From contig NZ_JADEWL010000026.1 in the NCBI RefSeq assembly GCF_015207665.1, forward strand, positions 1 to 61,133: DNA of 61,133 nt, given 5' to 3'. A program made the position numbers and the translations under genes. The notes below the pieces were generated by a model. That model saw only the letters and a program-made list of their open reading frames with translations, searched no databases and had not been told where the DNA came from. This stretch comes from Plectonema cf. radiosum LEGE 06105. GTDB taxonomy: Bacteria > Cyanobacteriota > Cyanobacteriia > Cyanobacteriales > Nostocaceae. Positions 31,953-61,133 of this stretch are shown in pieces; within the stretch, counting starts at the first letter, position 1, and the number at the start of each line of letters is the position of its first letter.

Positions 31953-32014
31953 ACCGTTAACGAGAGAGCTAATAATACAATTGCGATACTTTAATTGATT
32001 AATTAGGAGTAACA

Positions 32015-32683: not shown

Positions 32684-32686
32684 AAC

Positions 32687-32980
32687 ATGAGTTGGGTGAG
32701 GATTCCTACGTCAAGTTTTCTAATTACCAGTACTGTGTTTATTGTGTTTGCCCTTGATATGGCTCGTCCTGGATATGCTTCGTTTGCTTTAATTCCAAAT
32801 GTCCGACCTTACATTGCAACGCTTACTACTGATATTCGTTCGGATATAAAAAATTTGACTCGCTTTGAACCCTTACTCCCAAAGAATATTCAGAAATTAG
32901 ATGAATCATCAAATTGCCGAACACTATTAGATGCTTACAACAAGAATGCTTTATGTCATTTCGAGCGTCCGAATTATTAA
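32687..32980 (+). CDS. Small exported protein, unknown
   Basis: A 97-aa protein with an N-terminal hydrophobic stretch (FLITSTVFIVFALDMARPGYA) that reads like a signal peptide. The mature part is short, basic and has two cysteines. It overlaps the next gene's start by 28 bases. No family was recognised. Confidence 0.45.
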   Translation: MSWVRIPTSSFLITSTVFIVFALDMARPGYASFALIPNVRPYIATLTTDIRSDIKNLTRFEPLLPKNIQKLDESSNCRTLLDAYNKNALCHFERPNY

Positions 32981-33816: not shown

Positions 33817-33840
33817 CTTTTAATAGGAGAAAAACTATCC

Positions 33841-35066: not shown

Positions 35067-35099
35067 AATAGTTTGAATAAATAAAAATAACTAATGATA

Positions 35100-35128
35100 T
35101 TAACATGGCTACGAATTTATTCTATAAT
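35100..35128 (+). promoter_or_regulatory. Strong sigma-70-type promoter for the methyltransferase
   Basis: TTAACA (five of six bases of the -35 consensus) and a perfect TATAAT are separated by 17 bases. The -10 box ends 38 bases before the methyltransferase ATG, giving a short leader. Confidence 0.65.
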
Positions 35129-35165
35129 ATATGTATAAGAACTAAATCTATCTTTTTTCATTAAA

Positions 35166-36434
35166 ATGTTATCAAAAAGCAAGAAGTTGGTAGTAAGTTT
35201 ATTTTGTGGAGTTGGCGGTTTGGACTTGGGTTTTCAGTCTGCTGGGTTTGAAGTCGCAGTTGCCATAGATAATAATCCCAAAGTATTAGAACTATATCGC
35301 ATTAATTTCCCTAATACATTAATTTTATGTCGAGATATTGGCGATATTTCAGCCGTAGAAATTAGAGAAATTATTCAAAATAAATATCCAGATTGGGATG
35401 GAGAAATTGCCCTCATTATTGGTGGTCCTCCCTGTCAAGGGTTTTCTGTTGCTGGTAAACAAGATGTTAATGATGCTCGCAGTCAGTTAGTAATCAAATT
35501 TATCAATTTAGTGGTAGAACTAAATCCATTAATGTTCGTGATGGAAAATGTTCCTGCCATCGAGTCGAAAAAGTTTGAGAGCATTACAGGTAATGCGATC
35601 GCCCTCATTGAAGAACACTACATTCTATCGAAATGGTTGCTCACAGCATCACATTACGGTGTACCCCAAAAACGACAACGAGCAATTTGGGTGGGGTCGA
35701 AGTTTGGCGAGATTGATGCACCGTACCAAAGCAATAGAAGGTTCAGTGTGGGGGATGCAATTTCTGATCTTAGCCATATCCCAATCAATCCTCAAACAGA
35801 CACCTGGGAGTGGAATTCTCAATGGAGAGAAAAGGGAGAATATGCCCAATACCTAGAGAAAATTTTCCCTAATTCATCTAGCTCACAAAAAGATATTATC
35901 ACTGGTTGTAAAGCAACTGTGCATACGGTAGCCACCCAACAAAAATATGCCGATACCAAACCTGGGAAGAAAGAACCGACGACTTGGGCTTATCGACTTT
36001 CCAAAAACGGTTTCTCTCCTACCCTACGTGCTGGAAGTGGAAACAGAACTTCCTCTCGTCCAATTCACTACGAACAAGCGAGAGTTATAACAGTTCGCGA
36101 AGCAGCGAGGTTACATAGTTTTCCAGACTGGTTCGATTTCGGGACGAGTAAGCTTGCGGCACATAAAGCTATAGGTAATAGCGTTCCACCATTGCTGGCT
36201 TATGCAATAGCGCAAACGTTGAGTGTTGAGTTAGAGCAAAAATTGCCATGTAGAAAATCTGCTCTCAAGACACTTTCAGCAAGCTCGTTTTTCGGATTAA
36301 CTCATGCGCCAAATTTTGCTTACACAAAGACTGTGAGCTTTTTAATACCTTCCGTTCGAGTTGAGGAAGCGATCAAAAAATGTTCGGGTACAAAATATTT
36401 GCTACGGGAAATTATTTTTGTTGATGATTCATAG
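35166..36434 (+). CDS. C5-cytosine DNA methyltransferase
   Basis: A 422-aa enzyme that transfers a methyl group from S-adenosylmethionine to C5 of cytosine in DNA. Motifs appear in order: I FCGVGGLDLGFQSAGF; IV GGPPCQGFSVAG with the catalytic Cys; VI ENVPAI; VIII QKRQRAIWVG; a target-recognition region at about 170-300; IX in SPTLRAG; and X KAIGNSVPPLLA. Length is normal for the family. No cognate endonuclease is adjacent, so it may be an orphan or an element-borne protective enzyme. Its target site cannot be read from the sequence. It has its own strong promoter and is followed by a decayed helicase remnant on the other strand. Confidence 0.93.
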   Translation: MLSKSKKLVVSLFCGVGGLDLGFQSAGFEVAVAIDNNPKVLELYRINFPNTLILCRDIGDISAVEIREIIQNKYPDWDGEIALIIGGPPCQGFSVAGKQDVNDARSQLVIKFINLVVELNPLMFVMENVPAIESKKFESITGNAIALIEEHYILSKWLLTASHYGVPQKRQRAIWVGSKFGEIDAPYQSNRRFSVGDAISDLSHIPINPQTDTWEWNSQWREKGEYAQYLEKIFPNSSSSQKDIITGCKATVHTVATQQKYADTKPGKKEPTTWAYRLSKNGFSPTLRAGSGNRTSSRPIHYEQARVITVREAARLHSFPDWFDFGTSKLAAHKAIGNSVPPLLAYAIAQTLSVELEQKLPCRKSALKTLSASSFFGLTHAPNFAYTKTVSFLIPSVRVEEAIKKCSGTKYLLREIIFVDDS

Positions 36435-42929: not shown

Positions 42930-44348
42930 TTATACTTTTTTAATTACTTTTTCTATTTTGATAAATTCTATCAATGTAAAACTCCCAATGATTAAGCTAG
43001 ATAATATTTCTGTAATAGTAAAACTATAATAAACTCCATTGACACCAATCATCATAGTTAATAATAACAGTAATGGAATAAACAAAACTATCTGTTTAAA
43101 AATTATGAAACCTGCGGCAATTTTTGCATTACCTATGGACTGAAATAAAGTGAGGCTGCATGACAAAAAAGGAGCCGTAATAAGTGTAAAAGTAATTAAT
43201 CTAAAATTGAATGAGTTATTTGTAGTAATATCCAAATTTGGTATGACCCAGCGAAGAAAGAATGTTGGAGACACTTGTAAAGTCAGCCAAATCAGAATGA
43301 ATAATATAGTTCCGGTAAGACAAAAAATGAAGTAAGCTTTTTTAAGTCTTCTATAGTTTCTTGCTCCGTAACTTATACCAATTACAGGCTGTAGTGCTTG
43401 CACAAGACCATTTAAAGGAGTAATGACCAAAAAATATAGTCTGACTGTAGCTCCTGCAAACGCAATGTCACTATCTGTTCCGTAGTCAGCAATAGATTTA
43501 AAAATTATTATCTGCTGAATTATCCCCGTTAATTGCATGAGCATGACCGATGCACCAACGGATAAGATTGGTGATACTAAATCTAACCCAAAATTAATCT
43601 TTCTAGAATTGGACGTAATTGAACTTCTACTATAAAAAATAAAATATGCAAAATTCACAATAAAATGAGCTAAAGCTGCTAAATTAGTCGCTAATGCTAT
43701 ACCTTGAATACCAAAGTTTAGAAATTTAACAAATATTATATTTAAAAAGAAGTTAGTCGTTACAAATATAAAAGAAAAGACAGTTGCAAGTCTGATTTTA
43801 GCTTCAGATTTGACAAGCGTATTAGAAGCTACTGCTGGAATGAAAAATATCGAACCAATTATATATGTTTTAAGATAGCCAACTCCATATTTAGCTACTT
43901 CTCCATCTCCACCCATGAATGCAATTAATTCATTCCCAAATATATATCCTATTACAGCAATGAAAAATGAAATGATTATACTTATTACTGTTAAATTACC
44001 TATAATTTGAGACTCAGTTTCTATATCTCCTGAACCAATTGCTCTACTCATAACAGAAGCAGAGCCTACCCCAATCGATACGGCACATCCAGTTACAATA
44101 GATGTCAGTGGCAGTGCAAGTGAAATACCCGCTAAAGCATTTTGTCCAATTAATTGACCAGCAAATAATGCATCCAGGAAACTGTTTAAACCAACAAGCA
44201 GCATCCCTATGATGCCAGGAATTGATAACTTGAACATGATTGTAACAAGATTACCATTGAGAATTTCATTTGTAAGTTGGGATTGCTGCGCTGTAGACAT
44301 TATTACTTTATATGTGGCATTAACACTAGGGTGAATATTATCAATCAA
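42930..44348 (-). CDS. MATE-family efflux transporter
   Basis: A 472-aa protein with 12 predicted membrane helices in two similar halves, as is usual for the MATE (NorM-like) superfamily. Typical segments are the early LSIPGIIGMLLVGLNSFLDALFAGQLIGQNALAGISLALPL, GCAVSIGVGSASVMSRAIGSGD and the central LVITPLNGLVQALQPVIGISYGARN. ATG 44300 (MSTAQQ) is an alternative start. These transporters use a cation gradient to export drugs or metabolites. Placed in the NRPS/PKS cluster, it most likely exports the product. Confidence 0.88.
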   Translation of the reverse strand: MIDNIHPSVNATYKVIMSTAQQSQLTNEILNGNLVTIMFKLSIPGIIGMLLVGLNSFLDALFAGQLIGQNALAGISLALPLTSIVTGCAVSIGVGSASVMSRAIGSGDIETESQIIGNLTVISIIISFFIAVIGYIFGNELIAFMGGDGEVAKYGVGYLKTYIIGSIFFIPAVASNTLVKSEAKIRLATVFSFIFVTTNFFLNIIFVKFLNFGIQGIALATNLAALAHFIVNFAYFIFYSRSSITSNSRKINFGLDLVSPILSVGASVMLMQLTGIIQQIIIFKSIADYGTDSDIAFAGATVRLYFLVITPLNGLVQALQPVIGISYGARNYRRLKKAYFIFCLTGTILFILIWLTLQVSPTFFLRWVIPNLDITTNNSFNFRLITFTLITAPFLSCSLTLFQSIGNAKIAAGFIIFKQIVLFIPLLLLLTMMIGVNGVYYSFTITEILSSLIIGSFTLIEFIKIEKVIKKV

Positions 44349-44396: not shown

Positions 44397-45428
44397 TTAT
44401 TTAATCATGTTTAAACAACTAACGCGATACTGCTTGACTGCTTCTAATTCCAAATATTTTGCTGAGTTAAATGCACTTATAACCTCACCACAAACTTCAA
44501 CTTTGGCTTCATAAGCACCTGTTTTACTACCATCGGTCTTCTCAAAATCAATCCGTACTTCTGCCCAGTCAGCCTTCTGACCTTCAGCGACTTCTTCCAT
44601 TGCAAGTACCTTGCCTACTTTCAAGTAGTTAAGCCAACTCCAGCCAAACTCCATCCAAATTTCGCGTTCGGCAATTTGCTCAAATTCGCTTAAACCAGTC
44701 CAACCTCGGTAGTATTCACGTAAACCTGAGACTGAACCATTTCGGTGTACTAGTAAATCCAATACATCCCGCGAGAGATGTCCCCATAAGCATCCTTGGG
44801 GTAAATCAATTAATGTAGGAGCAAACTGATGTCCACCAAAGTGAGTTGTTTGCCATATTCTTAATTTACCATTAGAAGCAGGAGCATATTCTTTACGTAA
44901 TTGTCTATATAAAGGAGTTCCAAATCTGCCACAAGCAAGGTCTACTTGAGTATGAGTACAAACCATGAGTTCGCGAATGTGACTGGTTTGTTGTTGATAT
45001 TGTGTAAATTCGGGTAAATCATTGGGTTGTTGCATTAACTTTTTGAATATTGCCGTTACTAGAGCAACAACTTTGTTCTCTGGAACAATAAATTCCTGCT
45101 TTTCAAATCGAGAAAATAGCTTTGCAGGACGATAGTAGTAAAAGACACGGGTAAAACCGGGATTAGAATACTCGCGGTCGGGAGCAATTAGTATCGGTTT
45201 TAACTTAACCCCATGCTGAGAAACTAACTCTTGGAATAAACCCACCAATGATTTGATAGTAGGATTTTCTTGAAAAATTTCTTGCGGCCAAGGTTGTGGA
45301 ATTTCCATAATTAACCAATAATCGCAAGTACCTGCTGTACCAATTGGGTCTTCTTTGTTAGCTTTAGAAACTAAGGAACAAAAACGACAATCTTGAAGTT
45401 GAGTTTCATAAGTATGTATTATTTTCAT
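44397..45428 (-). CDS. Sucrase/ferredoxin-like (thioredoxin-fold) protein
   Basis: A 343-aa protein of the sucrase/ferredoxin-like (Suc/Fer) family. Visible signatures are DCRFCSLVSKANKEDPIGTAG near the start, MVCTHTQVDLACGRFGTPLYRQL (about 200) and WQTTHFGGHQFAPTLIDLPQG, with Cys and His residues able to bind a 2Fe-2S cluster. The gene lies 38 bases downstream of the P450 gene on the same strand. This makes it a candidate electron-transfer partner for the P450 (inference). Its true activity is unknown; the name sucrase is historical. Confidence 0.75.
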   Translation of the reverse strand: MKIIHTYETQLQDCRFCSLVSKANKEDPIGTAGTCDYWLIMEIPQPWPQEIFQENPTIKSLVGLFQELVSQHGVKLKPILIAPDREYSNPGFTRVFYYYRPAKLFSRFEKQEFIVPENKVVALVTAIFKKLMQQPNDLPEFTQYQQQTSHIRELMVCTHTQVDLACGRFGTPLYRQLRKEYAPASNGKLRIWQTTHFGGHQFAPTLIDLPQGCLWGHLSRDVLDLLVHRNGSVSGLREYYRGWTGLSEFEQIAEREIWMEFGWSWLNYLKVGKVLAMEEVAEGQKADWAEVRIDFEKTDGSKTGAYEAKVEVCGEVISAFNSAKYLELEAVKQYRVSCLNMIK

Positions 45429-46862: not shown

Positions 46863-49800
46863 TCATGATTTATTTAAATTGCTCATAGCATTATCGATAT
46901 AAATTCTCAGTTGTTTAGCTAATTCTTGAATATGAGGTTCAACGAAAATCGAGAAATGGTCTCCAGGGATGTCAATAAATTGAATCGGTTGACTAGAATA
47001 CTTACCCCATCCTAATAAAGGGTCGTCAGTATACCATTCTGGATTATTAAAGTCATGAACTATTTTCTCCGACGCTCGAAATAGAGTTATCGGCTGAGGA
47101 TAACAGAGGGGAACATAATTTCGCATCGCTTGAACATGAGCTTTGAAAAGTTTGTAATAACGGAGAAAATCTTGAATTTCGGCATCGCTAAAGATGAAGT
47201 TTGCTTTTTGATTAATTAAATGAAGTTGCTCAGTTAATGGCAAATCTCGAAGTTGTTCAAAAGGTACTGAAAAGTCTATATTATTATCGGTTTTTATTGA
47301 TTCAGCTATGCGGAGTAAAAATTTTGTATCGTCATCATTGGTAGGTTCAATGCTTGTTTCTGGTAATATAGCATCGATGACAACTACTAAACCTACTGTT
47401 TGACCCTGCTTTTGTAGTTGCTGCGCCATTTCAAAGGCAAGTACACCACCGTAACAATGACCACCTAAAAGTAATGGATCATTTGGTTGTACTTTACGAA
47501 TTTCTTGCAGATAGCGAGTTGCTGTTTCTTCTACTGAAATAATTTCTGGTTTGTCTTGCTCTACATTATCTTCCAAAGCATAAAATGGATAATCTTCACC
47601 AAGTCTTCTGGACAAATTAAAGTAGTGAGTAATACCTCCACCAGCACCATGTATACAGAAGAAAGGTATCTTGGAGCCAGAAGAGTTAATTGCTACTAGA
47701 GGAGAACCAGATTTTTGACGAGATGGCTGACTGACGATGGTTGCTAGTTTTTCAATTGTGGGATTTTCAAAAAGAGTAGATAGTGGAAGGTTATGCCCAA
47801 ATCTGTCTTGAATTTGAGCCATTAACCGGACAGCTAAAAATGAGTGACCACCCAACTCAAAAAAGTTGTCTGTCACTCCAATAGGGTTAGTATTAAGAAG
47901 ATTCCCCCAAATTTTTACTAAAGCTAATTCCGTAAAGTTTCGGGGAGCAACAAATGACTTATTCGTATTTTGTCGAATAATTTCATTATTGGCTAGCGCA
48001 CGTTTGTCTACTTTGCCATTAGGTGATAGTGGGAGTGCATCCATTACAACAAAAGCAGATGGTACCATATAGCTAAGTAATTTATGTTGCAAATAGGGCA
48101 ACAATTGTGCAGCTATATCTTGTTTACTTGTTACAATATAGGCAATCAAACACTGATTTTGTTGAACATCATTTCTCGCAATGACAACCGATTCTTGTAC
48201 ATCAGGATGTTGGGTAATTACTGTGGCTATTTCACCTAATTCTACTCGAAAACCTCTGATTTTTACTTGTTCATCATGGCGACCAAAATACTCAAGATTT
48301 CCATCTTTAAGATATCGTACTAAATCGCCTGTTTTATAAAGCTTATTTCCCGGAATAAAGGGGTTATTAATAAATCTTTCCTGAGTTAATTCCCGACGGT
48401 GTAAATAGCCTTTTGCTAACCCATCACCACCAACATAAAGTTCACCAACAACTCCTACAGGTGTTGGTTGTAAATCGCGATTCAATACATAAATTTGAGT
48501 ATTATCAATCGGGTGACCAATGGGAACACTGTGTGCTTGATTTTGTAGTAAACTGGTGTCGTAGTGAGTAGCATTAGCGGAAACTTCCGATGAACCGTAA
48601 AGGTTGATCAGCTTTACTTCTGGCATCAATTCTTGGAAACTTTGAACTAATTTTACAGAAATTGCTTCTCCGCTAGTTATCCAAAGTTTTAGCTGAGATA
48701 ATTTCTGTAGGAGATGACTGTAATTATCAAGAAGTAAGCGCAGTAATGAGGGTACAAGTATGATACGAGTAACTTTGTGATGCGCTAAAGTTTCTATAAA
48801 TAGTTGCAAGTCTAGTACAGTTGCATTGCTGATGATTACTGTAGGAACTCCTTGAAGTAAAGGAGCAAAAATTTCCCAAACCGAATCGACAAAGCTAATC
48901 GCTGTTTTCTGACAGCAAACTTCTCCCTGGCTAAAAGGATATGTTTTCCATAGCCAGTGTAAGCCGTTTACTGTACCGCGATGGGTGCCAAGAACGCCTT
49001 TAGGTGTTCCAGTCGAACCAGAAGTATAGATAATATAGGCAAGATTATCAGTTTCTGAGATACTAATGGGGTTTTCTAAACTTTCTTGAGCAATCTTTTC
49101 TTTATGAATATCTAAACAAATGGTTTTAGCTGAAGATAAAGATATTTTTTCTAATATCTCATGCTTGGTAATTAACAGCGATGCTTGAGAATCAGCGAGC
49201 ATGAAATTTAGACGTGACTCTGGATAGCTGGAATCAAGGGGAATGTATGCACCACCAGTTTTGATAATAGCTAAAATTCCCACTACCATATCTATAGAGC
49301 GTTCCAGGCATAGAGCAATCAGCGTGTCCTTCGTTACTCCCTGGTTTTGTAAGTAATGTGCGAGTTGATTAACTCTATGGTTGAGCTGACGATAAGTTAG
49401 TTCCTCAGATTCGCTAATTAATGCTAAAGAGTCAGGAGTTTGCTCGACTTGTTGCTCGAATAATTGATGTAAAGTTGCATCTTGAGGATAATCTGCACGA
49501 GTTTGATTAAATTTAAATAATAGTTTTTCTTGCTCGGAAGCAGTATTAAGTGACAATTCACTCAGACGCTGTTGTGGATTTACAACTACATTTTCTAATA
49601 AAGTTTGGAAATTGTTGATAAATTGGGTTATTGTTGTTGAATCAAAAATATCCGTATTGTATTCCAAACAACCCGTTAATCCGTCTTCGGATTCAGACAT
49701 TGATAGAAAAATATCTAATTGAGATGTACCGCTATCAAACTCCAAAGTACGAAAGGTTAATCCAGATACTTCATGCACGGAGGTTGGAGTATTTTGCAAT

Positions 49801-50963
49801 ACAAACATAACCTCGTAAAGTGGATTTTGACTTAAATCTCGTTCGGGTTGTAATTCTTCTACAAGCATCTCAAAAGGTAAATCCTGATGTGCATAAGCAT
49901 CAAGAGTCACCTCACGTACTCGATGTAAAAGTTCGCAGAAACTAGGATTTCCATCTAGGTTATTACGTAACACCAAAGTATTAACAAACAAACCCAACAT
50001 TCCTTCCAATTCTGCGCGGTTGCGGTTGGCTATTGGAGAACCAATCAAGATGTCTTCTTGGTTTGTGTAGCGGTATAGTAATATGTTAAATGCTGCCAGC
50101 AAACTCATAAAGAGAGTGCTATCTTCTCGCTGACTTAATTGCCTGAGTGCAGTAGTCAGGGATGCTGAAAATTTAAAGTATTGCTTGGCACCAATGAAAG
50201 TAGTAGCATTAGGTCGCGGATGGTCTGTAGGTAATTGGAGTATAGGTAACTCACCCTTGAGTTGTTGCTTCCAGTAATTTAATTGGGTTGCGAGAAATTC
50301 ATCTTGGATGCGATCGCGCTGCCAAATTGAAAAATCTGCATACTGAATTGGGAGTTCGGGTAATGGGGAAGGTTGATTTGTCGAGAAAGCAGCATACAGC
50401 GTTGATAGTTCGTGCAAAAACACACCCCAAGACCATCCATCTGTGATAATGTGGTGCATGGTCACAAGCAAAACCTGTTCTTCTTGACTCAATCGCAGTA
50501 AAGTAGCTCTAATTAGCAGTCCTTTAGCTAAATTAAAGGGTTCTTTCGCGGAGGATGCTGCAAACTTTTTAACGTGCGATTCCCAATTTTCACCAGACAA
50601 ATGTTCCAGGTTAATAATAGATAAATCCCAAGTCAATTCGGGAGCAATTTGTTGTACTGGTTCTCCATTTACAAGGGTAAAATTTGTCCGCAAAACTTCA
50701 TGACGTTTGATAATTTCATTCAAGCTTTGCTCTAATGCTGCAATATTGAGATGTCCTTGTATATGAAAAGCAATAGGAATATTATAGAAAGGACTCCCAT
50801 GATAAAGCTGGTCAATAAACCACAATCTTTGTTGAGAAAAAGATAAGGGAATATTTTGAGTGTCTTGACGCTTGGGAATAACATTATTTTGAAGCTTTCC
50901 TCCCTTCCATTTTTCTAAAAGGGCTTTTTTGGCTGGTGATAAATTAGAATATTTTGTATTCAT
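46863..50963 (-). CDS. Terminal NRPS module: C-A-PCP-TE (Cys thioesterase)
   Basis: A 1366-aa NRPS. C domain (about 40-470) has HHIITDG. A domain (about 500-990) has YIIYTSGSTGTPKG, SFVDSVWEIF, NLYGSSE, GELYVGGDGLAKGYL, YKTGDLVRY and NGKVDKR. PCP (about 1010-1085) has GGHSFLAVR with the phosphopantetheine Ser. TE (about 1100-1360) has the motif GGHCYGG, in which the nucleophile is Cys1170 rather than Ser. By alignment with GrsA I read the specificity residues as V-D-W-I-I-S-L-A-N-K, close to the remembered beta-alanine code. The first residue is Val instead of the Asp that binds alpha-amino groups, which suggests a beta-amino acid. It accepts the chain from the upstream PKS and releases the product. 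Confidence 0.93.
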   Translation of the reverse strand: MNTKYSNLSPAKKALLEKWKGGKLQNNVIPKRQDTQNIPLSFSQQRLWFIDQLYHGSPFYNIPIAFHIQGHLNIAALEQSLNEIIKRHEVLRTNFTLVNGEPVQQIAPELTWDLSIINLEHLSGENWESHVKKFAASSAKEPFNLAKGLLIRATLLRLSQEEQVLLVTMHHIITDGWSWGVFLHELSTLYAAFSTNQPSPLPELPIQYADFSIWQRDRIQDEFLATQLNYWKQQLKGELPILQLPTDHPRPNATTFIGAKQYFKFSASLTTALRQLSQREDSTLFMSLLAAFNILLYRYTNQEDILIGSPIANRNRAELEGMLGLFVNTLVLRNNLDGNPSFCELLHRVREVTLDAYAHQDLPFEMLVEELQPERDLSQNPLYEVMFVLQNTPTSVHEVSGLTFRTLEFDSGTSQLDIFLSMSESEDGLTGCLEYNTDIFDSTTITQFINNFQTLLENVVVNPQQRLSELSLNTASEQEKLLFKFNQTRADYPQDATLHQLFEQQVEQTPDSLALISESEELTYRQLNHRVNQLAHYLQNQGVTKDTLIALCLERSIDMVVGILAIIKTGGAYIPLDSSYPESRLNFMLADSQASLLITKHEILEKISLSSAKTICLDIHKEKIAQESLENPISISETDNLAYIIYTSGSTGTPKGVLGTHRGTVNGLHWLWKTYPFSQGEVCCQKTAISFVDSVWEIFAPLLQGVPTVIISNATVLDLQLFIETLAHHKVTRIILVPSLLRLLLDNYSHLLQKLSQLKLWITSGEAISVKLVQSFQELMPEVKLINLYGSSEVSANATHYDTSLLQNQAHSVPIGHPIDNTQIYVLNRDLQPTPVGVVGELYVGGDGLAKGYLHRRELTQERFINNPFIPGNKLYKTGDLVRYLKDGNLEYFGRHDEQVKIRGFRVELGEIATVITQHPDVQESVVIARNDVQQNQCLIAYIVTSKQDIAAQLLPYLQHKLLSYMVPSAFVVMDALPLSPNGKVDKRALANNEIIRQNTNKSFVAPRNFTELALVKIWGNLLNTNPIGVTDNFFELGGHSFLAVRLMAQIQDRFGHNLPLSTLFENPTIEKLATIVSQPSRQKSGSPLVAINSSGSKIPFFCIHGAGGGITHYFNLSRRLGEDYPFYALEDNVEQDKPEIISVEETATRYLQEIRKVQPNDPLLLGGHCYGGVLAFEMAQQLQKQGQTVGLVVVIDAILPETSIEPTNDDDTKFLLRIAESIKTDNNIDFSVPFEQLRDLPLTEQLHLINQKANFIFSDAEIQDFLRYYKLFKAHVQAMRNYVPLCYPQPITLFRASEKIVHDFNNPEWYTDDPLLGWGKYSSQPIQFIDIPGDHFSIFVEPHIQELAKQLRIYIDNAMSNLNKS

Positions 50964-50983: not shown

Positions 50984-53900
50984 TTATGAATTAGTTAATA
51001 GAACCGCTACTTCTTCTTCAGATAATTCTTCTATCTTTGACAACAGAATTTGCTCGAGCATTTCTGCTTGTTTGGCTGGTATCATTGCCTCGGATAAAAG
51101 TTCGCGCAGTGGTAAGTCCACAGGGAATTTTTTTCGCAATCGAGAAACTAATTGAGTTGCACTAAGGGAATCTCCTCCTAATTCATAGAAGTTATCGTAA
51201 ATACCAATTTCTGCAATTCCAAGTATTTGTTGCCATATTTCCGTAATTTGTTTTTCTAAATAATTTGTCGGCTCAACATAGGAATTAGTAAGGCTAGGTC
51301 GAGAATAACGTGATAATGAATTTAATTGATTAGTAGATTGGGAATTTGTATTCTTGTTTAGACTAAATATATGATTTTTTCGGACATTTATATCTACCGT
51401 AGAAAGAATAATTTGAGTACCTGACTTTAAAGAAAATATTCGTTTAAATACTTCTACAGTTTCTGTTGGGGTAATAGCTAATCCTGACCCAGGTAATTGC
51501 TCAAGTGCTGTTTGTTCTTGGTTTACATTCAGTTTTAATTTATCCCAATTGATAATATACCACGGTAAACAATTATTCCGGTTATGTCGGTTAATAAAAG
51601 TATCTATAAATTGATTGCTTGCTGAATATAAACTTAATCCAAATCCTCCTAAAATAGAAGATAAAGAAGAAAAAACTATACAAAAATCTAAACTTACATT
51701 TTGTAAGACTTGTTCTAATACTGAAATTTGACTATGTTGTAATTGTAATATATTTTCTAATTCGATGTTTGTGATTTCTGGAATGGAAGCAAATGTATGT
51801 TCGCGCTTAATTCCAGTTGAGCAAATAACCCCGTTAATTTGTCCAATATGTTCATCTGTAATGATTTGATGTATTTGTTCATAATTAGTTTTATCTGCAC
51901 GCAGTATTAAAACTTCTGTACCGTTATTCTCGAATGCTAGTAATTGTTGAATTTTGCAACTTACTTCATCATCAGTAGCATGAGTTTCAAGCCATTGTGA
52001 GAAATAATCTTTTTCTGGAAATGTAGAATCCTCTATAAATATGAGTTTTGCTTGAAAAGTTTTTGCTAAATACTCTGCAAGCACAACTTCAATACTTTCT
52101 AATCCACCAGAAAACAGATAAACACCTTGTTTTTTGAAAGGTATATCGTCTTCAGCTACTGATTGCAAGCTAACTGGTTCAAATGTTTGTACCCAACGGT
52201 AGCAATCGCGATAAGCAACTACGTTATCTGAGGATACAGAAGTTAACTCATCAAAAAGTTTATCAACAATATGGCTTTCATAATATTCCTGTCTTTCCTT
52301 TGTGTCTTTTGTCTTGAAAAGTTGTTCATGGGGGAAACCCCCAAGACGAACACTTTTCGCTGCGTCTCTGTGGTTATTTAAATTAATATCAATACACCGA
52401 CAGCCAATATTAGGATACTCTTGCGGAATGACTTTACATAAGCCTAATATTGCTGCTTTCTCTGGATCGAGTTTTTCATTACCATTAACATCTTGAATAT
52501 TATTTGATATAACCCAAACTTGTAAACTATTGCTAATTTGTAGCTTACTAAGACTTTGCGTTAAAAATAATAAACTGTTGAATTCTAAATAGTTACTTAG
52601 TTGATTTATTTCATCATGACTTACGCTCCATAAATAAGCAATTTGTTCCGGTTTTTGACCTAACGATACTAATTCTTTAAGCAATATATCATAGTCTTCA
52701 CCGAGCAATGGATTAATTGTATAAATGTCTTCACTTAATTTGCTAAACTGTTCTCCTTTTTGAACAGTAATGACATTTTTATTTTGATTTTTAAATACAT
52801 CAACTAATTGCTTGCCAATTCCCAAATCATCAACAAAAAATAGCCATTTTTCTTGTTTAGATTTTATTTGAGTGGAGGATGCTCCCGCTAGTAAAGAGCG
52901 TTTCCATGAAGGCACATAAAACCAGTCAGCAATATCTTGTTTATTATCTAATATGGTTATTTTTTGATTTATAGAAGGGGAAGGGGATTTGGCATCAATC
53001 CAGTACCTTTGTCGTTCAAAGGGATAAGTTGGTAAAGGTAAACGATGACGATGCTCTTTCGTATAAAACTCCGACCAATCTATTTCTATACCTGCAAGCC
53101 ACAACCGACCTAATGTTTGTAATAAAAATTTAACATCTGATTGTTGCTCTTTTACATGGTGTAACGAAGTTAATACCTGTTGTTTAGTATTTCTATCTAA
53201 ATGCTGTCTCGTCAACATGCTTAAAGTTCTTCCCGGTCCCACCTCTAGAAAAACACCTTCAAATTGCTGTATTAATTGCGATATTCCATCCGAGAATCTA
53301 ACAGTTTTTCGTAAATGTTGGCACCAGTAATCTGGATTTTTAGCTTGTTGTTCGGTAATCCAATTACCAGTTACGTTAGAAATAAAGCTTATAGAAGGTG
53401 AATTCAGTTTGACTGTTTTAAATACTTCATTAAATGCTTCTAAGATGGGTTCCATCATCACAGAATGAAACGCATGAGACGTATGTAACTCCCGACATTC
53501 AACTTCTTGATCAGATAATTGCTTTTCTAGGGCTGCAACTGCTTCGTTTGTTCCGGAAACTACACAGGATTCGGGGCTGTTAATTACTGCAATTTGTAAG
53601 CATTCTTGATACAACTGATTTCCATCGAGCAGTTGTTGTACGTCTTTTTCTGGCATCTTAATTGCCAGCATACTTCCTGTGGGTACTTGTTGCATTAACT
53701 CTCCCCTTTTTGCCACAATTTTTAGGGCATCTTCTAAAGAAAATACATCTGCAATTGTTGCGGCAACATATTCCCCAATACTATGACCAATCATCGCTTC
53801 TGGACGGACTCCCCAAGACATTAATAACTGAGCCAAGGCGTATTCTGTAACAAATAACGCAGGTTGAGTCAGAGATGTTTGTTGGAGTTGATTTGAAGCA

Positions 53901-55684
53901 ATTTCAATCTCTGCTTGTTTGGGGTAAAGTAAAGAACGGATATCAAGACCAAGGTGTGGTTGCAAAATTTCGGCACAGCTATCTACGTGTTGTTTAAATA
54001 TTGGTTCTATTTCATATAGTTCCCTACCCATGTTTGCATATTGTGAGCCTTGTCCCGAAAACATGAAGATAACCTGAGTATGACCTGGCTTGCAGTGGTG
54101 ACTCAAAATAGTTTGTGGGTCTTGGCTGTGAAGCGATTTTACCGCATCATCTAGGTCTTGGCAAATTACCACCCGGCGATAGTCAAATTCTCGGCGACCC
54201 ACTTGTAAGGTATAAGCTACATCAGGTAGGGTAATATCGGGGTTTTGCTCTAAATAATCGCTCAGTTTTACTGTTGCAGTGTCTAAAGCTGTACTGGTTT
54301 TGGCTGAGAGTAATAATAATTGATAAGGACGCGAAGGACTTGAAGCTTCAATGTTTGGAGCTTCTTCTAAGATTACATGGGCATTGGTCCCGCCAATACC
54401 AAAAGAACTTACACCCGCACGACGAGGAGTACCGTTTGTCTCCCACTCTGATAATTTGGTGTTGACAAAGAAGGGACTATTGGCGAAATCTATTTCTGGG
54501 TTGGGTTTTTCAAAATGTAAGCTCGGAGGTATTTGTTTGTGTTTTAGTGCTAGTACAGTTTTAATTAATCCCGTTACCCCCGCTGCTGTATTTAAATGCC
54601 CGATATTCGTTTTTACTGACCCAATGGCACAGAAGCCTTTTTTATCTGTACTGGTACGGAATGCTTGTGTAAGAGCCGTGATTTCAATCGGGTCTCCTAA
54701 AGGGGTTCCGGTTCCATGTGCTTCAATATAATTGATGGTTTCTGGTTCAACTCCAGCTAAAGCTAGTGCTTCTAAAATCACCTCTCTTTGACCATCAACA
54801 CTCGGAGCTGTATATCCAACCTTCAAAGAACCGTCATTATTGATAGCTGAAGCTTTAATTACCGCATGAATACAGTCACCATCAGCAACAGCGTCCTCTA
54901 ATCGCTTCAAGACCACAACACCCAAACCGCTGCCGAAAATAGTTCCTTGAGCTTGAGCATCAAAGGCTCGGCAATGTCCGTCAGGAGAATTAATCCCTCC
55001 TTCAGTATACAAATAACCAGTTTTTTGGGGAACTTGTATCGAAACACCACCAGCAAGCGTAATATCGCTTTCGCCATTTAACAAACTTTGGCAGGCTAAG
55101 TGGACTGCAACTAGTGATGTAGAACAGGTGGTCTGAATATTTATACTTGGTCCTTTAAGATTTAACTTATAAGAAATTTGTGTAGGTAAATGGTCTTTAT
55201 CATTGCCAATAAAAAGTTGGAATGTATCGGCTGATTTTATAAAATCATGATTGGGATATAAATTTGATAATAAGTAATTACTAACAGTAGTACCAGCAAA
55301 AAGACCTATTTGACCAGTGTAAGTTTCCGAATCATAACCAGCATTTTCTAAAGCTTCCCAAACACATTCTATGAAAATCCGGTGTTGTGGATCTGTAATT
55401 TCTGCGTCTCTAGGGGTGAAGCCAAAAAATGAAGCATCAAATAGCTCTATATTTTCTAATACAGTACCCGCCTTCACATATTGATGATTGCTCAATAATG
55501 CTGGGTCTACTCCTGTAGATGCTAATTCTTCATCAGTAAAAAAACAAATTGATTCTACACCATTTTGCAGATTTTGCCAAAAACTATCGATGTTATTGGC
55601 ATCCGGGAAACGACCTGACATACCGATGATAGCAATTTCATCTTTATCATTAAAGCTATTAATTAAATTATTTTTATTTTCCAT
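50984..55684 (-). CDS. Type I PKS module: KS-AT-KR(degenerate)-ACP
   Basis: A 1566-aa PKS. KS (about 15-440) has Cys187 (CSTS), EAHGTGTPLGDP and NIGHLNTAAG. AT (about 530-840) has GHSIGEY and a HAFH motif, which predicts malonyl-CoA. After a structural region comes a KR-like domain (about 1180-1400). Its cofactor loop is GGLESIE instead of GGLGGIG, and the usual catalytic Lys region reads LQLQHSQI. The Ser and Tyr of SSLSSILGGFG...YSASN remain. KR activity is therefore doubtful, so the beta-keto group probably stays. ACP (about 1470-1530) has GGDSLSATQ. A dispersed repeat is inserted in frame at about residues 1105-1122. It sits between two NRPS genes, adding one two-carbon unit. Confidence 0.92.
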   Translation of the reverse strand: MENKNNLINSFNDKDEIAIIGMSGRFPDANNIDSFWQNLQNGVESICFFTDEELASTGVDPALLSNHQYVKAGTVLENIELFDASFFGFTPRDAEITDPQHRIFIECVWEALENAGYDSETYTGQIGLFAGTTVSNYLLSNLYPNHDFIKSADTFQLFIGNDKDHLPTQISYKLNLKGPSINIQTTCSTSLVAVHLACQSLLNGESDITLAGGVSIQVPQKTGYLYTEGGINSPDGHCRAFDAQAQGTIFGSGLGVVVLKRLEDAVADGDCIHAVIKASAINNDGSLKVGYTAPSVDGQREVILEALALAGVEPETINYIEAHGTGTPLGDPIEITALTQAFRTSTDKKGFCAIGSVKTNIGHLNTAAGVTGLIKTVLALKHKQIPPSLHFEKPNPEIDFANSPFFVNTKLSEWETNGTPRRAGVSSFGIGGTNAHVILEEAPNIEASSPSRPYQLLLLSAKTSTALDTATVKLSDYLEQNPDITLPDVAYTLQVGRREFDYRRVVICQDLDDAVKSLHSQDPQTILSHHCKPGHTQVIFMFSGQGSQYANMGRELYEIEPIFKQHVDSCAEILQPHLGLDIRSLLYPKQAEIEIASNQLQQTSLTQPALFVTEYALAQLLMSWGVRPEAMIGHSIGEYVAATIADVFSLEDALKIVAKRGELMQQVPTGSMLAIKMPEKDVQQLLDGNQLYQECLQIAVINSPESCVVSGTNEAVAALEKQLSDQEVECRELHTSHAFHSVMMEPILEAFNEVFKTVKLNSPSISFISNVTGNWITEQQAKNPDYWCQHLRKTVRFSDGISQLIQQFEGVFLEVGPGRTLSMLTRQHLDRNTKQQVLTSLHHVKEQQSDVKFLLQTLGRLWLAGIEIDWSEFYTKEHRHRLPLPTYPFERQRYWIDAKSPSPSINQKITILDNKQDIADWFYVPSWKRSLLAGASSTQIKSKQEKWLFFVDDLGIGKQLVDVFKNQNKNVITVQKGEQFSKLSEDIYTINPLLGEDYDILLKELVSLGQKPEQIAYLWSVSHDEINQLSNYLEFNSLLFLTQSLSKLQISNSLQVWVISNNIQDVNGNEKLDPEKAAILGLCKVIPQEYPNIGCRCIDINLNNHRDAAKSVRLGGFPHEQLFKTKDTKERQEYYESHIVDKLFDELTSVSSDNVVAYRDCYRWVQTFEPVSLQSVAEDDIPFKKQGVYLFSGGLESIEVVLAEYLAKTFQAKLIFIEDSTFPEKDYFSQWLETHATDDEVSCKIQQLLAFENNGTEVLILRADKTNYEQIHQIITDEHIGQINGVICSTGIKREHTFASIPEITNIELENILQLQHSQISVLEQVLQNVSLDFCIVFSSLSSILGGFGLSLYSASNQFIDTFINRHNRNNCLPWYIINWDKLKLNVNQEQTALEQLPGSGLAITPTETVEVFKRIFSLKSGTQIILSTVDINVRKNHIFSLNKNTNSQSTNQLNSLSRYSRPSLTNSYVEPTNYLEKQITEIWQQILGIAEIGIYDNFYELGGDSLSATQLVSRLRKKFPVDLPLRELLSEAMIPAKQAEMLEQILLSKIEELSEEEVAVLLTNS
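52321..52370. repeat. Small dispersed repeat inserted in frame in the PKS gene
   Basis: The perfect stem tgggggaaaccccca (52329-52343) is followed by agacgaacacttttcgctgc, the look of a Nostocales small dispersed repeat. It lies in the linker before the KR-like domain and keeps the frame, adding the atypical residues RLGGFPHEQLFK. Confidence 0.6.
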
Positions 55685-55762: not shown

Positions 55763-58700
55763 TTATTCTTTATGCTTTGTAGTTCGATGATTTTGCCGAG
55801 CTTGTTTCCGACGATTCATTGAAGCTGTGTGACTTTTGTTTTGATGAGTATTTTCTTGAACAAATTGTTGTTTATTTTGTAAAGCTGTTAAATATTTGGT
55901 CAAATAGTTGATGGTTGGATATTGAAAAATATCAACTAATGAAAGTTGCTGAAATATTTTTTGCAACTTACTATGAACTTGAACCAAAAGCAATGAATGA
56001 CCACCTAGTTCAAAGAAATTATCATGAATACCAACTTCTTCAACACGAAGAACTTCTTGCCAAATATTAGCAATCGTTTTTTCTACTTCAGTTTGAGGTG
56101 GTAGATATTTTGCTTCTAATTCAGGGCGTACTTGGTCGGGTATAGGTAGTGCTTTGCGGTCAACTTTCCCATTAGGCATTAGTGGTAATGCCTCTAAGGT
56201 CAGCAAAACATTTGGAATCATGTAGTTTGGTAACTTTGATGCTAAAAATTCTCGTAGTTCAGTAATTGTCAGTGTTTGCTCTTTTTGAGCAACTATATAA
56301 GCTACTATTCGTTGAAAATCTACCTTATCTTCCCTGACTAGTACTACAGCTTCTCGCACTGCTGGGTGTTGGCTGACAACTGCTTCAATTTCTCCGAGTT
56401 CGATGCGAAAACCGCGAATTTTAACTTGATGGTCAATACGCCCTACAAATTCGATATTGCCATCCGGCAGCCAGCGAGCTAGGTCGCCAGTGCGATATAA
56501 TCTTGCTTCTGCTGCCGTTTTAGTTTTATCATTGTCCTTCGTAAACGGATTGGGGATAAACTTTTCCTGGGTTAACTCGGGCAGATTCAAATACCCTTGT
56601 GCTAGTCCATCTCCTCCTACATATAGCTCACCCGTAACACCTGGGGGAAGAAGACTGCCATATTTGTCCAGGATATAAATTTGCGTGTTTGAAATCGGTT
56701 TTCCAATGGGAATTGTATTTTTTTTCAAATATTCTTTTAGAGTTTCTCCCATATCTATTTTTAGATTGTCTGCCAACTGCAAATGTATTGCTTCAAAATA
56801 CTCCGCAGCAGCATAATTATCACCTTTTTCTTTATTTCTTGCTTCAATTTGATTGGCAATTCTTAATTGATCCTCAAGAACACTCTGTAAATCTGTAGCA
56901 GTCGTATTCGGATTGGATAAAACAGCCCGAAATACAACGATTTCTTTGTCTTTATCATAAGAACTGTCCATCAGAGTAGTCTTAGATACAAAAGTCAGTC
57001 CTTGTTCAAACTGTTCTTTTTGTATTTGTATATTTTGTTGATTAATTCTTTGGATATCATAGTCACTCAAAGATTTTTGTGTTGCTTTTGCTCTTAAATC
57101 TTCAGGGACATATCGATAATTAACGATATTTAAGGCTGGTTCCATTATCAGTTCAAATGGTTCTAATTGCTCAATAAATCTGGAAAAATATTGGGCTTTC
57201 TCTATGCCATTGTTAATTAGAATCTCGTATCCCTTTTTACCGATAATATGAAGTGCCCCGTGTAAGCATAACGAAATCGCCGAGCGTGACCCCTCAATTG
57301 TGAAGCGTCCTACATCGAATGTATCTCGCTGAGCCTGGTAACGGGCTGTGGTTTCGGCAAAGTTTAACATCTGTGGGTCTTTAAACAAACAAACACTAAT
57401 ACCCTGGGGTAGGTATAACTGTTTATGTCCACAAATAGTTATAGAATCAGCTTTGTCAATCCCTTTCAATTTCCCTTTGTGCTTGTCGGAAAATATCGTC
57501 GCACCACCCCAAGCTGCATCCACATGAAAATGAATGCCGAATTCCTGCGCTATATCGCCCATTTCCCATAAGGGATCGATTTCACCAGTTTCTGTTGTTC
57601 CAGCGATACCTACAAGTGCCAAGATGTATAACTTATTTCTCCTGCATTCTATTATTTTTTCTTTGAGCAGATTGATATCTAACTTCTCGTCATCATTACT
57701 GTCAATAAAAACAATGTTGTCTGTCCCCAAACCTAACATCGAAGCTGCTTTATTAAGAGAATAATGCATTAGCCGAGAGCCAATGATAACGATATCGTCA
57801 TATCCCTTCTTACTCAGAACCTTATAAAGGCTTTCTTTTGATAACTCACCAGAATTTTCTTTGCTTAATAATCCCGAATTTCGCGCACACAATAAAGCAC
57901 TGATGTTTGCTGTTGTACCGCCAGTTGTTATAATACCCAGATTTCGATTTTTCTGCTGAATATTTTCTTCGTAAAATTCACCCGAACATTCATAAACAAG
58001 ACGATGCAACATGGCGATCGCCTCTCTTTCCAAAAATATTAAAGACTTTGATGTCTCAATTTTAACCAGATTTTGGTTCAATCGTGAGATCATCTTGCTC
58101 ATATCGTGCATAAAATCAGGCAAAGCGGATGTCATATGCCCAATGTATGTAGGAGACCCCGTATCGATTGTATATGGAAGCACCTCTTGGGAAAACTTAT
58201 CGTAATAATCGTCAACTTTTATAGGATATAAGGGTAACTCGCTCTGTTGAAATTTTGTAGCTAGTATTTCTGGACTAATGCCAGGCTTGGTAAAAGGTTT
58301 GTGGTGAATCCCAAGAAACTGGTTTTCAGTTGCATTACAAACAACTTCTGGCTTGAAATATTGCAGTATTCTTTGACGTGTTTCCCAAAAATTGACTTCA
58401 AAGAATGTAACATCAGCAGCAACTTCACTTGAGCCGTAGAGATTGAACAATCTGGCAGAACTGAGTTTCTGGTGAAATGACTCAGCTAACCCTATTGGCA
58501 GGGCTTCGCCGCTGCAAAACACATATTTGAGATATCGAAGTTTTGTCAGTTGTTCAGCCGCATTTTCCAGCATCGCTTTGAGCAGGGATGGAACAACAAC
58601 AATTCTAGTTATCTTTTTATCGCTCAACAGGCTCATTAGCCTGGAAACATCGCCCCGTATACTATCTGGAACCACCACCAGCGGAATTCCTTTGAGAAGG

Positions 58701-61133
58701 GGAGAAAATATTTCCGCAACATGATCGACAAAATTGATGGAGGTTTTTTGAATGCAAATCTCCGAAGCCGCAAATGGTAGCGTTTCCCAGATCCAATGCA
58801 AGCGATTGACAATGCCACGAACCTTACCGAGAACCGCTTTGGGTTTTCCGGTAGAACCGGACGTATAGATTGCGTATGCCAAGTCATCGGGTGTTGTTTG
58901 AAGATTTAAATTTTCAACGCTTTCTCTAGCAATGGCATCCCTATCCCTATCTAGACAAACGATATGGGCGTTTTGAGAAGAAATCTTTTCAGTCAGAGAC
59001 TCCTGAGTCAACAGGGTACGCACATTGGAATTTTCTAGCATGAACGACAATCGTTCTTGCGGATAGTTCGGATCTAACGGCACATATACGCCATTAGCTT
59101 TGAGAACAGCCAGCAAGCTCACCACCTGCTCCAAGGATGGCTCAAAACATATTCCCACCAGCACTCCCGAACCAACTCCGAGAGACTGTAAATAATGTGC
59201 CAGTTGATTTGCCCATTGGTTCAACTGTCGATAGGTCAGTTGTTGGTTTTCAAATACCACTGCCACTGCATCTGGAGTTTTCTCTACCTGGGCTTCAAAT
59301 AATTCGTGGATACATAGGAGGGGATATTCTACTTCTGTATTATTCCATTCCCACAGTAATTGATGCTGGTCAGATTCAGTTAATAGTGGTAACTCTGACA
59401 AACGCTGTTGTGGATTAGCAATAATTCCAGATAACAACGTTTGCAAATGACTCACCATTCGTTGTATAGAACTTTCCTCAAATAAATCAGTATTGTATTC
59501 TAAGCTTCCAACCAACCCCGACTCAGTTTCTGTCATATATAGGGTTAAATCAAACTTAGAAGTATCATTATCGCCTTCCAAGGGAGTTAAAGTTAAACCA
59601 GGCAACTCTAAAGCCGACATTGGAGCATTCTGAAGTACAAACATCACTTGAAACAATGGTGCATAACTTAAATCTCGCTGTGGTTGTAGTCGCTCAACTA
59701 ACAACTCAAAAGGCAAATCCTGATGTGCATAAGCTCCTAGTGCTACCTCTCGTACCCGTTTTAATAGTTCTTCAAAACTGGGGTTTCCTGCTAAGTTAGT
59801 TCTCAACACCAGGGTATTGACAAAAAATCCAATTAACCCCTCAATTTCTGCTCGATTACGGTTAGCAATCGGCGAACCAACCACAATATCTTCTTGCGCT
59901 GTATAACGCCATAGCAGTGTTTGGAATCCTGCTAACAGGGTCATAAATAATGTAGTTCCCTGCTGCTGACTTAACTTATTTAAAGCTACAGATAATTCTT
60001 TTGATAATTTAAATGAGTAGGTCGCACCACGGTAAGTTTGAATTGCTGGTCTTGGGTGGTCTGTGGGTAATTCTAATACTTTTGGTGCGTTCTCTAATTG
60101 CTTGAGCCAATAAGATATTTGGGTTTCAAGTACTTCTCCTTGCAGCCATTGTCGTTGCCAAGCTGCAAAGTCTACATACTGTACTGGTAGTTCTGGGTAG
60201 GAGATGGGTTCTTCATTACAGAAGTTAGAATAAAGTGAAGAAAATTCTTCTACTAATACACCAACTGACCAACCGTCCGAGACGATGTGGTGCATTGTCA
60301 GTAGTACGATGTGTTCTTGTTCACTAAGACGTAATAGTTTTACTCTCAGTAAATGGTCGCTGCTGATGTCAAAGGGTTGTTGTGCTTCTTGTCTAATATT
60401 ATGTTTAATTTCAGCTTCTTGTTGGGAAGCACTCAAGGAACTGATATCTAGTATTGATAATCTTAGGGGCAAATCTTCCGAGATTACAGCTACCGCTTGC
60501 CCTTCTACTGAAAGGAAATTGCTTCTAAGGGCTTCATGACGGCGTACAATTTCGTTGAAGCTTCGTTCTAATGCATTGTGATTTAATTCTCCCTGTAGCC
60601 TCACAGCCGCAGGAATATTGTAGAAGGAACTATTTGGTTGCAGTTGGGCTAAAAACCACAGTCGTTGTTGGGCAAATGATAGTGGTAATTGTTGCGAGCG
60701 TGGAATCTGCTCAATACTCGTCGCTTCAACTGCTGAATCTAAGTTAATCGCTTTCTCAATTTCTTTTGCTAATCCTGCTATTGTTGGTTTTTCAAATAAG
60801 TAACGTAAAGGCAACTCTACTTGGAATACTTGCCGGATTTGAGAAATCACACGAGTTGCAATTAAGGAATGTCCTCCTAATTCAAAGAAGTTATTATCAA
60901 TACCTACTTTTTCTATAGCAAGTACTTCTGCCCAAATACCTGCTAATAAATTCTCGATTGGTGTGGAGGCAGGGACTATAGATGATACTTGTGTTAGTTC
61001 AGGTATAGGTAGTGCTTTACGGTCAACCTTACCATTTGGTGTTAGTGGCAGTGCCTCCAAGGTGATAAAAGCTCCTGGTACCATGTAGTTCGGTAACTTT
61101 AACTCTAAAAAGCTCCGTAGTTCAGGAATTACC
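55763..61133 (-). CDS. NRPS with adenylation domain split by a PLP decarboxylase (partial at 5' end)
   Basis: The reading frame is open to the right edge, so the true start lies beyond it. Visible order: end of an A domain (LPNYMVPGAF, NGKVDRK), PCP (GGHSLIATR), C (HHIVSDG, about 59330-60650), A N-terminal part (AIYTSGSTGKP, NFVDHVAEIF, NLYGSSE), an inserted PLP-dependent decarboxylase (about 56720-58390), A C-terminal part (IPIGKPISNTQIYILD, GELYVGGDGLAQGYL, YRTGDLARW, GRIDHQVKIRG, NGKVDRK), PCP (GGHSLLLVQ) and a basic tail. The insert has all group II decarboxylase landmarks: GGTTANISAL, MHYSLNKAA, GTTETGEIDP, HVDAAWGG and the PLP-binding Lys in GHKQLY. It resembles PanP-type aspartate 1-decarboxylase. 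Specificity residues read V-D-A-V-F-S-L-A-D-K, beta-alanine-like. Confidence 0.92.
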   Translation of the reverse strand, partial: VIPELRSFLELKLPNYMVPGAFITLEALPLTPNGKVDRKALPIPELTQVSSIVPASTPIENLLAGIWAEVLAIEKVGIDNNFFELGGHSLIATRVISQIRQVFQVELPLRYLFEKPTIAGLAKEIEKAINLDSAVEATSIEQIPRSQQLPLSFAQQRLWFLAQLQPNSSFYNIPAAVRLQGELNHNALERSFNEIVRRHEALRSNFLSVEGQAVAVISEDLPLRLSILDISSLSASQQEAEIKHNIRQEAQQPFDISSDHLLRVKLLRLSEQEHIVLLTMHHIVSDGWSVGVLVEEFSSLYSNFCNEEPISYPELPVQYVDFAAWQRQWLQGEVLETQISYWLKQLENAPKVLELPTDHPRPAIQTYRGATYSFKLSKELSVALNKLSQQQGTTLFMTLLAGFQTLLWRYTAQEDIVVGSPIANRNRAEIEGLIGFFVNTLVLRTNLAGNPSFEELLKRVREVALGAYAHQDLPFELLVERLQPQRDLSYAPLFQVMFVLQNAPMSALELPGLTLTPLEGDNDTSKFDLTLYMTETESGLVGSLEYNTDLFEESSIQRMVSHLQTLLSGIIANPQQRLSELPLLTESDQHQLLWEWNNTEVEYPLLCIHELFEAQVEKTPDAVAVVFENQQLTYRQLNQWANQLAHYLQSLGVGSGVLVGICFEPSLEQVVSLLAVLKANGVYVPLDPNYPQERLSFMLENSNVRTLLTQESLTEKISSQNAHIVCLDRDRDAIARESVENLNLQTTPDDLAYAIYTSGSTGKPKAVLGKVRGIVNRLHWIWETLPFAASEICIQKTSINFVDHVAEIFSPLLKGIPLVVVPDSIRGDVSRLMSLLSDKKITRIVVVPSLLKAMLENAAEQLTKLRYLKYVFCSGEALPIGLAESFHQKLSSARLFNLYGSSEVAADVTFFEVNFWETRQRILQYFKPEVVCNATENQFLGIHHKPFTKPGISPEILATKFQQSELPLYPIKVDDYYDKFSQEVLPYTIDTGSPTYIGHMTSALPDFMHDMSKMISRLNQNLVKIETSKSLIFLEREAIAMLHRLVYECSGEFYEENIQQKNRNLGIITTGGTTANISALLCARNSGLLSKENSGELSKESLYKVLSKKGYDDIVIIGSRLMHYSLNKAASMLGLGTDNIVFIDSNDDEKLDINLLKEKIIECRRNKLYILALVGIAGTTETGEIDPLWEMGDIAQEFGIHFHVDAAWGGATIFSDKHKGKLKGIDKADSITICGHKQLYLPQGISVCLFKDPQMLNFAETTARYQAQRDTFDVGRFTIEGSRSAISLCLHGALHIIGKKGYEILINNGIEKAQYFSRFIEQLEPFELIMEPALNIVNYRYVPEDLRAKATQKSLSDYDIQRINQQNIQIQKEQFEQGLTFVSKTTLMDSSYDKDKEIVVFRAVLSNPNTTATDLQSVLEDQLRIANQIEARNKEKGDNYAAAEYFEAIHLQLADNLKIDMGETLKEYLKKNTIPIGKPISNTQIYILDKYGSLLPPGVTGELYVGGDGLAQGYLNLPELTQEKFIPNPFTKDNDKTKTAAEARLYRTGDLARWLPDGNIEFVGRIDHQVKIRGFRIELGEIEAVVSQHPAVREAVVLVREDKVDFQRIVAYIVAQKEQTLTITELREFLASKLPNYMIPNVLLTLEALPLMPNGKVDRKALPIPDQVRPELEAKYLPPQTEVEKTIANIWQEVLRVEEVGIHDNFFELGGHSLLLVQVHSKLQKIFQQLSLVDIFQYPTINYLTKYLTALQNKQQFVQENTHQNKSHTASMNRRKQARQNHRTTKHKE
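56720..58390 (-). other. Embedded PanP-like aspartate 1-decarboxylase domain
   Basis: About 540 residues inserted between A-domain motif A5 (NLYGSSEVAADVTFFEV) and the PIGKP loop before A6. Domain start features PYTIDTGSPTYIGHMTSALP, LNQNLVKIETSK and LEREAIAMLHRLVY match, from memory, the PanP family that makes beta-alanine from L-aspartate. PLP contacts are intact: His in MHYSLNKAA, Asp in HVDAAWGG (57505-57530) and Lys at 57422-57424 in GHKQLYLPQG. These enzymes usually work as dimers. Confidence 0.85.

Follow-up and report, generated by a model that had tools for sequence, protein, structure and literature searches.

In cryptophycin biosynthesis, the stand-alone aspartate-type decarboxylase CrpG supplies a beta-amino acid to a non-ribosomal peptide synthetase (NRPS). 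A decarboxylase placed inside an adenylation (A) domain has also been described. JamL of the jamaicamide system has a Pyridoxal_deC domain in its A domain, the function of which is given as not clarified in PMC3870968. Since this was reported in 2013, the claim of the initial annotation that an embedded decarboxylase would be something new fails in part. According to the available part of PMC11355689, A domains are usually interrupted between a8 and a9 and sometimes between a2 and a3, sites that are typical but not strict. In a literature search of limited reach, no paper on A-decarboxylase fusions beyond PMC3870968 was found, and the available parts of PMC3252866, PMC10127204, and PMC13126170 leave the role of the insert unsettled.

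The window (the whole stretch of DNA analysed, 61,133 nucleotides) comes from the 7.6-Mb genome of Plectonema cf. radiosum LEGE 06105. As shown in Table 1, the NRPS gene P0001 is located at one end of contig C274. Its frame encodes 1773 amino acids counted from the first ATG, without a break, and is open at the contig edge; the contig ends at base 61133, and the gene is thus truncated. Between motifs A5 and A6, a group II PLP-dependent decarboxylase interrupts the A domain of P0001. The A domain breaks off after NLYGSSEVAADVT, about 557 residues are inserted, and the A domain restarts at TIPIGKPI. The A5-A6 loop of same-type relatives that lack an insert is just about 10 to 15 residues in length. 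Motifs A1-A5 (residues 616-887) and A6-A10 (residues 1485-1646) flank the insert in one frame, and Pyridoxal_deC (PF00282) is found at residues 966-1325, with 163 bits against a cut-off of 27, between AMP-binding and AMP-binding_C, which is the JamL-type arrangement. The anatomy proposed at first, one frame with A1-A5, the insert, A6-A10, and a PCP, was thus borne out by the unbroken frame, the Pfam domains, and the motif positions, and the decarboxylase-in-A-domain layout of the window is real.

Table 1. Features of P0001 and the neighbouring genes in the window
Feature	Position	Strand	Basis
NRPS gene P0001: upstream A-domain end, PCP, C, decarboxylase-interrupted A, PCP	55763..61084	minus	frame open to 61133
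First PCP, residues 46-108	60761..60949	minus	Pfam PP-binding
Condensation domain, residues 131-577, with HHIVSDG motif	59354..60694	minus	Pfam Condensation and motif
A domain, N-terminal part, motifs A1-A5, residues 596-896, code VDAVFSLADK	58397..59299	minus	Pfam AMP-binding 596-896
PanP-like PLP decarboxylase insert, residues about 897-1453	56726..58396	minus	profiles, alignment, predicted fold
Lys1221, predicted PLP Schiff-base lysine, motif GHKQ	57422..57424	minus	alignment
A domain, C-terminal part, motifs A6-A10, residues 1454-1646	56147..56725	minus	Pfam AMP-binding_C 1565-1640 and motifs
Second PCP, residues about 1661-1735, FFELGGHSLL	55880..56104	minus	Pfam PP-binding and motif
PKS module P0002, KS-AT-KR-ACP	50984..55684	minus	domain search
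Terminal NRPS module P0003, C-A-PCP-TE, A code VDWIISLANK	46863..50963	minus	domain search and code
Cytochrome P450	45467..46861	minus	annotation
Suc_Fer-like (sucrase/ferredoxin-like) protein	44397..45428	minus	annotation
MatE family transporter	42930..44348	minus	annotation
Penicillin amidase family protein	39010..41154	plus	annotation

The penicillin amidase gene adjoins the Mastigocoleus cluster too (83% identity). The rest of the window has a prophage-like block (24330-36434), where antirepressor-like, endolysin-like, and C5-cytosine methylase genes stand among unknowns, an nSTAND1 NTPase with WD40 repeats (12730-17421, 1563 amino acids), and trypsin-like peptidase proteins (5312-6514, 7248-11543, and 18162-21203), two of which have many TPR repeats.

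Is this layout found in other cyanobacteria? A fusion at the same A-domain site was found in nine other cyanobacterial genomes, with an insert identity of 79-96%: Richelia SL_2_1, Mastigocoleus testarum BC008, an Acaryochloris MAG, Hyella patelloides, Moorena SIO3H5, Cyanothece BG0011, the unicellular SU3, G397, and G922. The nearest fusion-bearing relative (G540) belongs to the same genus. Fusions were called by open-frame length and domain layout; the G922 fusion (L104:6548-11774) is spread over several overlapping frames, reflecting sequencing errors or decay. In the overlapping genome sets searched, fusions were found in 1 of 386 genomes of the phylum (among the matches listed), 4 of 217 of the family, 2 of 388 of the class, and 5 of 388 of the order, the genome of the window being included each time. 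In one sequence-pattern search, 25 stretches matched, seven of which encode a relative. The module context of the fusions varies; they lie ahead of a PKS, ahead of a TE, or inside longer NRPS chains. The initial annotation had considered that a sequencing error might have joined two genes. Apart from the rarity of the layout, nothing speaks for a sequencing or assembly error, and the recurrence at the same site in nine independent genomes refutes such an artefact, which is hardly conceivable here.

The insert falls within the PLP group II decarboxylases and is nearest to PanP (TIGR03799), which is the best NCBIfam decarboxylase family for it. It matches profile positions 54-522 with 526.6 bits, 80 below the curated cut-off of 606.1, and the first 53 profile positions are unmatched. 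Thus, the PanP-likeness claimed at first is supported, though under the cut-off. In a sample of six embedded, two free closely related, and two stand-alone proteins, the five other embedded sequences scored 520-529 bits, the free close relatives 518.5 and 518.9 bits, and the stand-alone genes 609.8 and 626.3 bits, over the cut-off. The alignment places the PLP residues at Lys1221, His1107, Asp1189, Tyr1249, and Arg1386, so that the set of cofactor residues is complete, as had been claimed, and the PF00282 match includes the Lys, His, and Asp. Lys1221 is the predicted PLP lysine, His1107 the stacking histidine, and Tyr1249 the loop tyrosine; the available part of PMC3870968 is a partial source for the roles of the five residues. 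All five are kept in 11/11 rows of the embedded clade (nine embedded and two free) and in 37/37 stand-alone rows of an alignment of 61 rows (A3), which omits G922 and covers 37 of the 41 fetched stand-alone genes. In all of these 48 rows, the PLP lysine is followed by Gln, and in 13 distant rows by Trp or Leu.

Structure prediction also gave the fold of a group II decarboxylase. The model of the insert alone has a mean pLDDT of 87.2, and its best PDB matches are the group II decarboxylases 4rlg (E 1.6e-35), GAD67 (2okj), and GADL1 (6enz). The model of the A domain with the insert is weaker (mean 73.2, pTM 0.52), with a pLDDT below 50 across much of residues 315-470, and it is poor in the first part of the insert. 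The two A halves flanking the insert are modelled well, and in Foldseek, A domains align over their full extent across the insert (1amu; 4d4i, TM by target 0.87). It is likely that the insert is a working L-aspartate alpha-decarboxylase seated in the A5-A6 loop and that the host A domain, and probably the terminal module too, activates the beta-alanine it makes. The insert would decarboxylate free L-aspartate to beta-alanine in a PLP-dependent manner; the surrounding A domain (VDAVFSLADK) would adenylate the beta-alanine made at the module, which would then pass to the PCP of the module and be condensed. Since the embedded lineage lies under the PanP equivalog cut-off, aspartate seems probable as the substrate but is not assured.

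Pantothenate synthesis was considered as a reason for the insert and rejected. PanD (PF02261) is present in all nine fusion genomes searched (the set without Moorena), in G1021 as two pieces, and the insert is therefore not needed for pantothenate there. Three other genomes (G1011, G990, and G172) have no PanD (PF02261) match, yet each has a PanP-like decarboxylase, which might serve pantothenate.

The beta-alanine code of A domains is VDWV(I/V)SLADK. Under the GrsA numbering, which I presume to apply, the specificity letters of P0001 are VDAVFSLADK, the same letters as first read, and agree with this code at 8/10 positions. The code is VDAVFSLADK in nine of the ten fusions and VDAVFSFADK in G922. 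Compared with the VDW-type codes of stand-alone systems, a paired change (window 58706-58735 and its counterparts) is seen, Ala and Phe standing in place of Trp and Ile/Val in 10/10 fusions. In a quick tree of 66 rows, which included 23 of the 69 other A domains, the VDW types are the sister group of a single clade made up of the A domains of nine fusions (SH-aLRT 100). Since all fusions share the Ala/Phe code, the pocket may favour another beta-amino acid. The insert would then act on 3-methylaspartate or a different beta-substituted aspartate, with 3-amino-2-methylpropanoate as the amino acid activated by the A domain; CrpG in the cryptophycin pathway is a precedent for the 3-methylaspartate route. 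The change of Trp to Ala in all ten codes would widen the pocket, and the sub-cut-off PanP scores of the embedded lineage are consistent with such a substrate. However, the change of Ile/Val to Phe at the other position would refill the pocket, the terminal A domain retains the VDW form, and no methylaspartate-making gene is present among the annotated neighbours of this cluster, which is truncated by the contig end. A beta-substituted substrate thus seems unlikely.

The beta-alanine reading can be compared with the stand-alone relatives. NRPS/PKS genes are present in 40/40 neighbourhoods of stand-alone decarboxylases (L119-L158, drawn from the listed places; 41 decarboxylase genes, one contig being only 4.8 kb). 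In 34 of them, the nearest recognised same-strand gene upstream has A-PCP at its end; in the others, it is a PKS gene (four cases) or ends in PCP-TE (L134), or the decarboxylase is on the opposite strand (L152). In one locus, a PKS module is flanked by two genes whose decarboxylase domains are identical (L150:7314-9011 and 13309-15006). A VD-type code is found in 26/40 neighbourhoods, mostly VDWV(I/V)SLADK directly before the decarboxylase and/or VDW(I/V)ISLANK in the terminal module. Among the 14 neighbourhoods without it, the FVDxVWE motif lies just outside the 20 kb in nine and on another contig in two; G442 has no motif, and two were outside the motif search.

The same association was seen in 217 Nostocaceae genomes, where a DNA pattern for FVDxVWExF was scored. 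The motif is present in 68 of the 75 genomes with a decarboxylase and in 2 of the 142 without one (68 with both, 7 with the enzyme only, 2 with the motif only, and 140 with neither; 70 with the motif). The Fisher p value is 1.9e-45, a figure that ignores relatedness. The 75 genomes hold 80 decarboxylase loci at an identity of at least 44%, including four fusions, with 12 rows at 30-36% excluded. Of the motif sites, 83/105 have a decarboxylase within 30 kb, and 63/80 decarboxylases have a motif at most this far away. These sequence data show a strong association of the decarboxylase with VDW-type A domains across genomes. A beta-alanine-type A domain, as claimed by the initial annotation, is probable.

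A comparison of orthologous clusters showed the free enzyme replaced by the embedded one. The PKS gene of the window matches those of five clusters (L125, L127, L136, L154, and L156) at 68-74%, and the terminal module matches at 75-81%. The C (74-80%) and PCP (66-82%) before the PKS are the counterparts of those of P0001. The N-terminal A part differs from that of P0001, with 40-46% identity in four of the five; in L156, the comparison covers only a 123-residue stretch (63%). The A codes of these clusters are of other types and are followed by a free decarboxylase gene. The C-terminal A part is fairly similar to that of P0001 in all five (57-67%), and thus the exchange may have ended inside the domain rather than swapping the whole domain. 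At the swap position, the fused A domain is found in the window and in Mastigocoleus, and both keep the VDW-type terminal module. In two further loci (L131 and L153), the genes are ordered as in the window, but the A domain has the code VDWVVSLADK and the decarboxylase is free.

A search at E up to 1e-30 gave a single decarboxylase match, the fusion, in the genome of the window and likewise in that of Mastigocoleus, an assembly marked 38% contaminated; a free gene was found in neither. In G000, one weak second TIGR03799 match was seen (E above 1.9e-6). Read most simply, these loci indicate that the job of the free enzyme, with the supply of the terminal module included, passed to the embedded one. 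Since the genome of the window gave no free decarboxylase gene, the insert probably also supplies the terminal C-A(VDWIISLANK)-PCP-TE module. In-cis supply of the host A domain, as proposed at first, would then be just one part of its role.

According to the available part of PMC3870968, the PLP enzymes of fold type I form dimers or tetramers whose active site lies at the interface, and the fused module should therefore dimerise. This habit would pair two NRPS chains, and the insert might be inactive or mainly structural, such as a dimerisation module. Nevertheless, every predicted catalytic residue is conserved, and no free gene was found where the fusion takes its place; an inactive or mainly structural insert is very improbable.

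A tree of 61 decarboxylases unites all ten fusions with two free relatives (G1031 and G1011) in a single clade (98/96). The free pair (L102:1637-3256 and L103:2029-3723) is 75% identical to the insert and nests beside the two fusions of its own genus, Cyanothece and SU3 (100/100 in the best trees). Their 11.0- and 6.1-kb contigs have no NRPS domain, and the VD-type A-domain motif pattern has no match in either genome. The gene next to the free relatives looks, by eye, like a glycerol-3-phosphate dehydrogenase gene. The tree suggests that the free pair may have been excised from a fusion. A single group of all ten fusions that leaves out the free pair is not rejected by AU tests (p 0.32 with 61 rows and 0.19 with 24 rows), and the excision is thus suggested rather than established. 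More tentatively, an obligate-dimer module might supply itself with beta-alanine at a high local concentration and also export it to a second A domain in another protein of the assembly line, a single swap having replaced both the A domain and the free gene, with a later escape in one genus.

The initial annotation had offered two models, decarboxylation of free aspartate or decarboxylation on the PCP. In the latter, aspartate would be activated via its side-chain carboxyl group and transferred to the PCP, where the insert would decarboxylate it. This is chemically possible in that the alpha-amino and alpha-carboxyl groups remain free, and the available part of the PARAS paper (PMC13126170) mentions two A domains tethering aspartate by its side chain. 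However, VDAVFSLADK has no basic residue for the alpha-carboxylate besides the universal Lys. Moreover, identical active-site letters are carried by the stand-alone enzymes and also by the two free relatives, which lie on short contigs without an NRPS domain. PCP-bound decarboxylation is quite improbable and fits worse. Decarboxylation of free aspartate to beta-alanine fits better because the code has no extra basic residue, the stand-alone relatives share the active-site letters, and the genomes of the two free relatives have no match to the VD-type motif pattern.

How does this locus compare with known systems? The insert resembles CrpG in the kind of role, but is embedded, the two being likened by description only. 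It shares profile positions 54-522 and the catalytic residues with PanP, and differs in the 80 bits under the cut-off, the 53 unmatched first positions, and the embedding. Like A domains interrupted by methyltransferases, oxidases, or ketoreductases, P0001 has a catalytic domain within one A-domain frame; it differs from those interrupted at a8-a9 or a2-a3 in that the insertion lies between A5 and A6. JamL (Q6E7J8, Lyngbya majuscula) likewise has Pyridoxal_deC inside an A domain of a cyanobacterial PKS/NRPS. Its layout, ...C-HxxPF-A-PLP4-A-CP, differs from P0001 in module order (available parts of PMC3870968, Table 2 and Discussion), the comparison being of published domain layouts and not of sequences. 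JamL itself was not found in the genome searches of the class, the order, and one family. The ten fusions with a common code, and the series of free and embedded enzymes in orthologous clusters, make the function of the JamL PLP domain testable, and give a rule to predict beta-alanine sites in cyanobacterial clusters. For engineering, they offer a putative building-block-making A domain and an unusual A5-A6 insertion site. In summary, one such layout, that of JamL, is already known; what is new is a conserved family for whose function the genomic case is strong, the NRPS/PKS setting of the stand-alone relatives, the co-occurrence in Nostocaceae, and the swap of free for fused enzymes in orthologous clusters.
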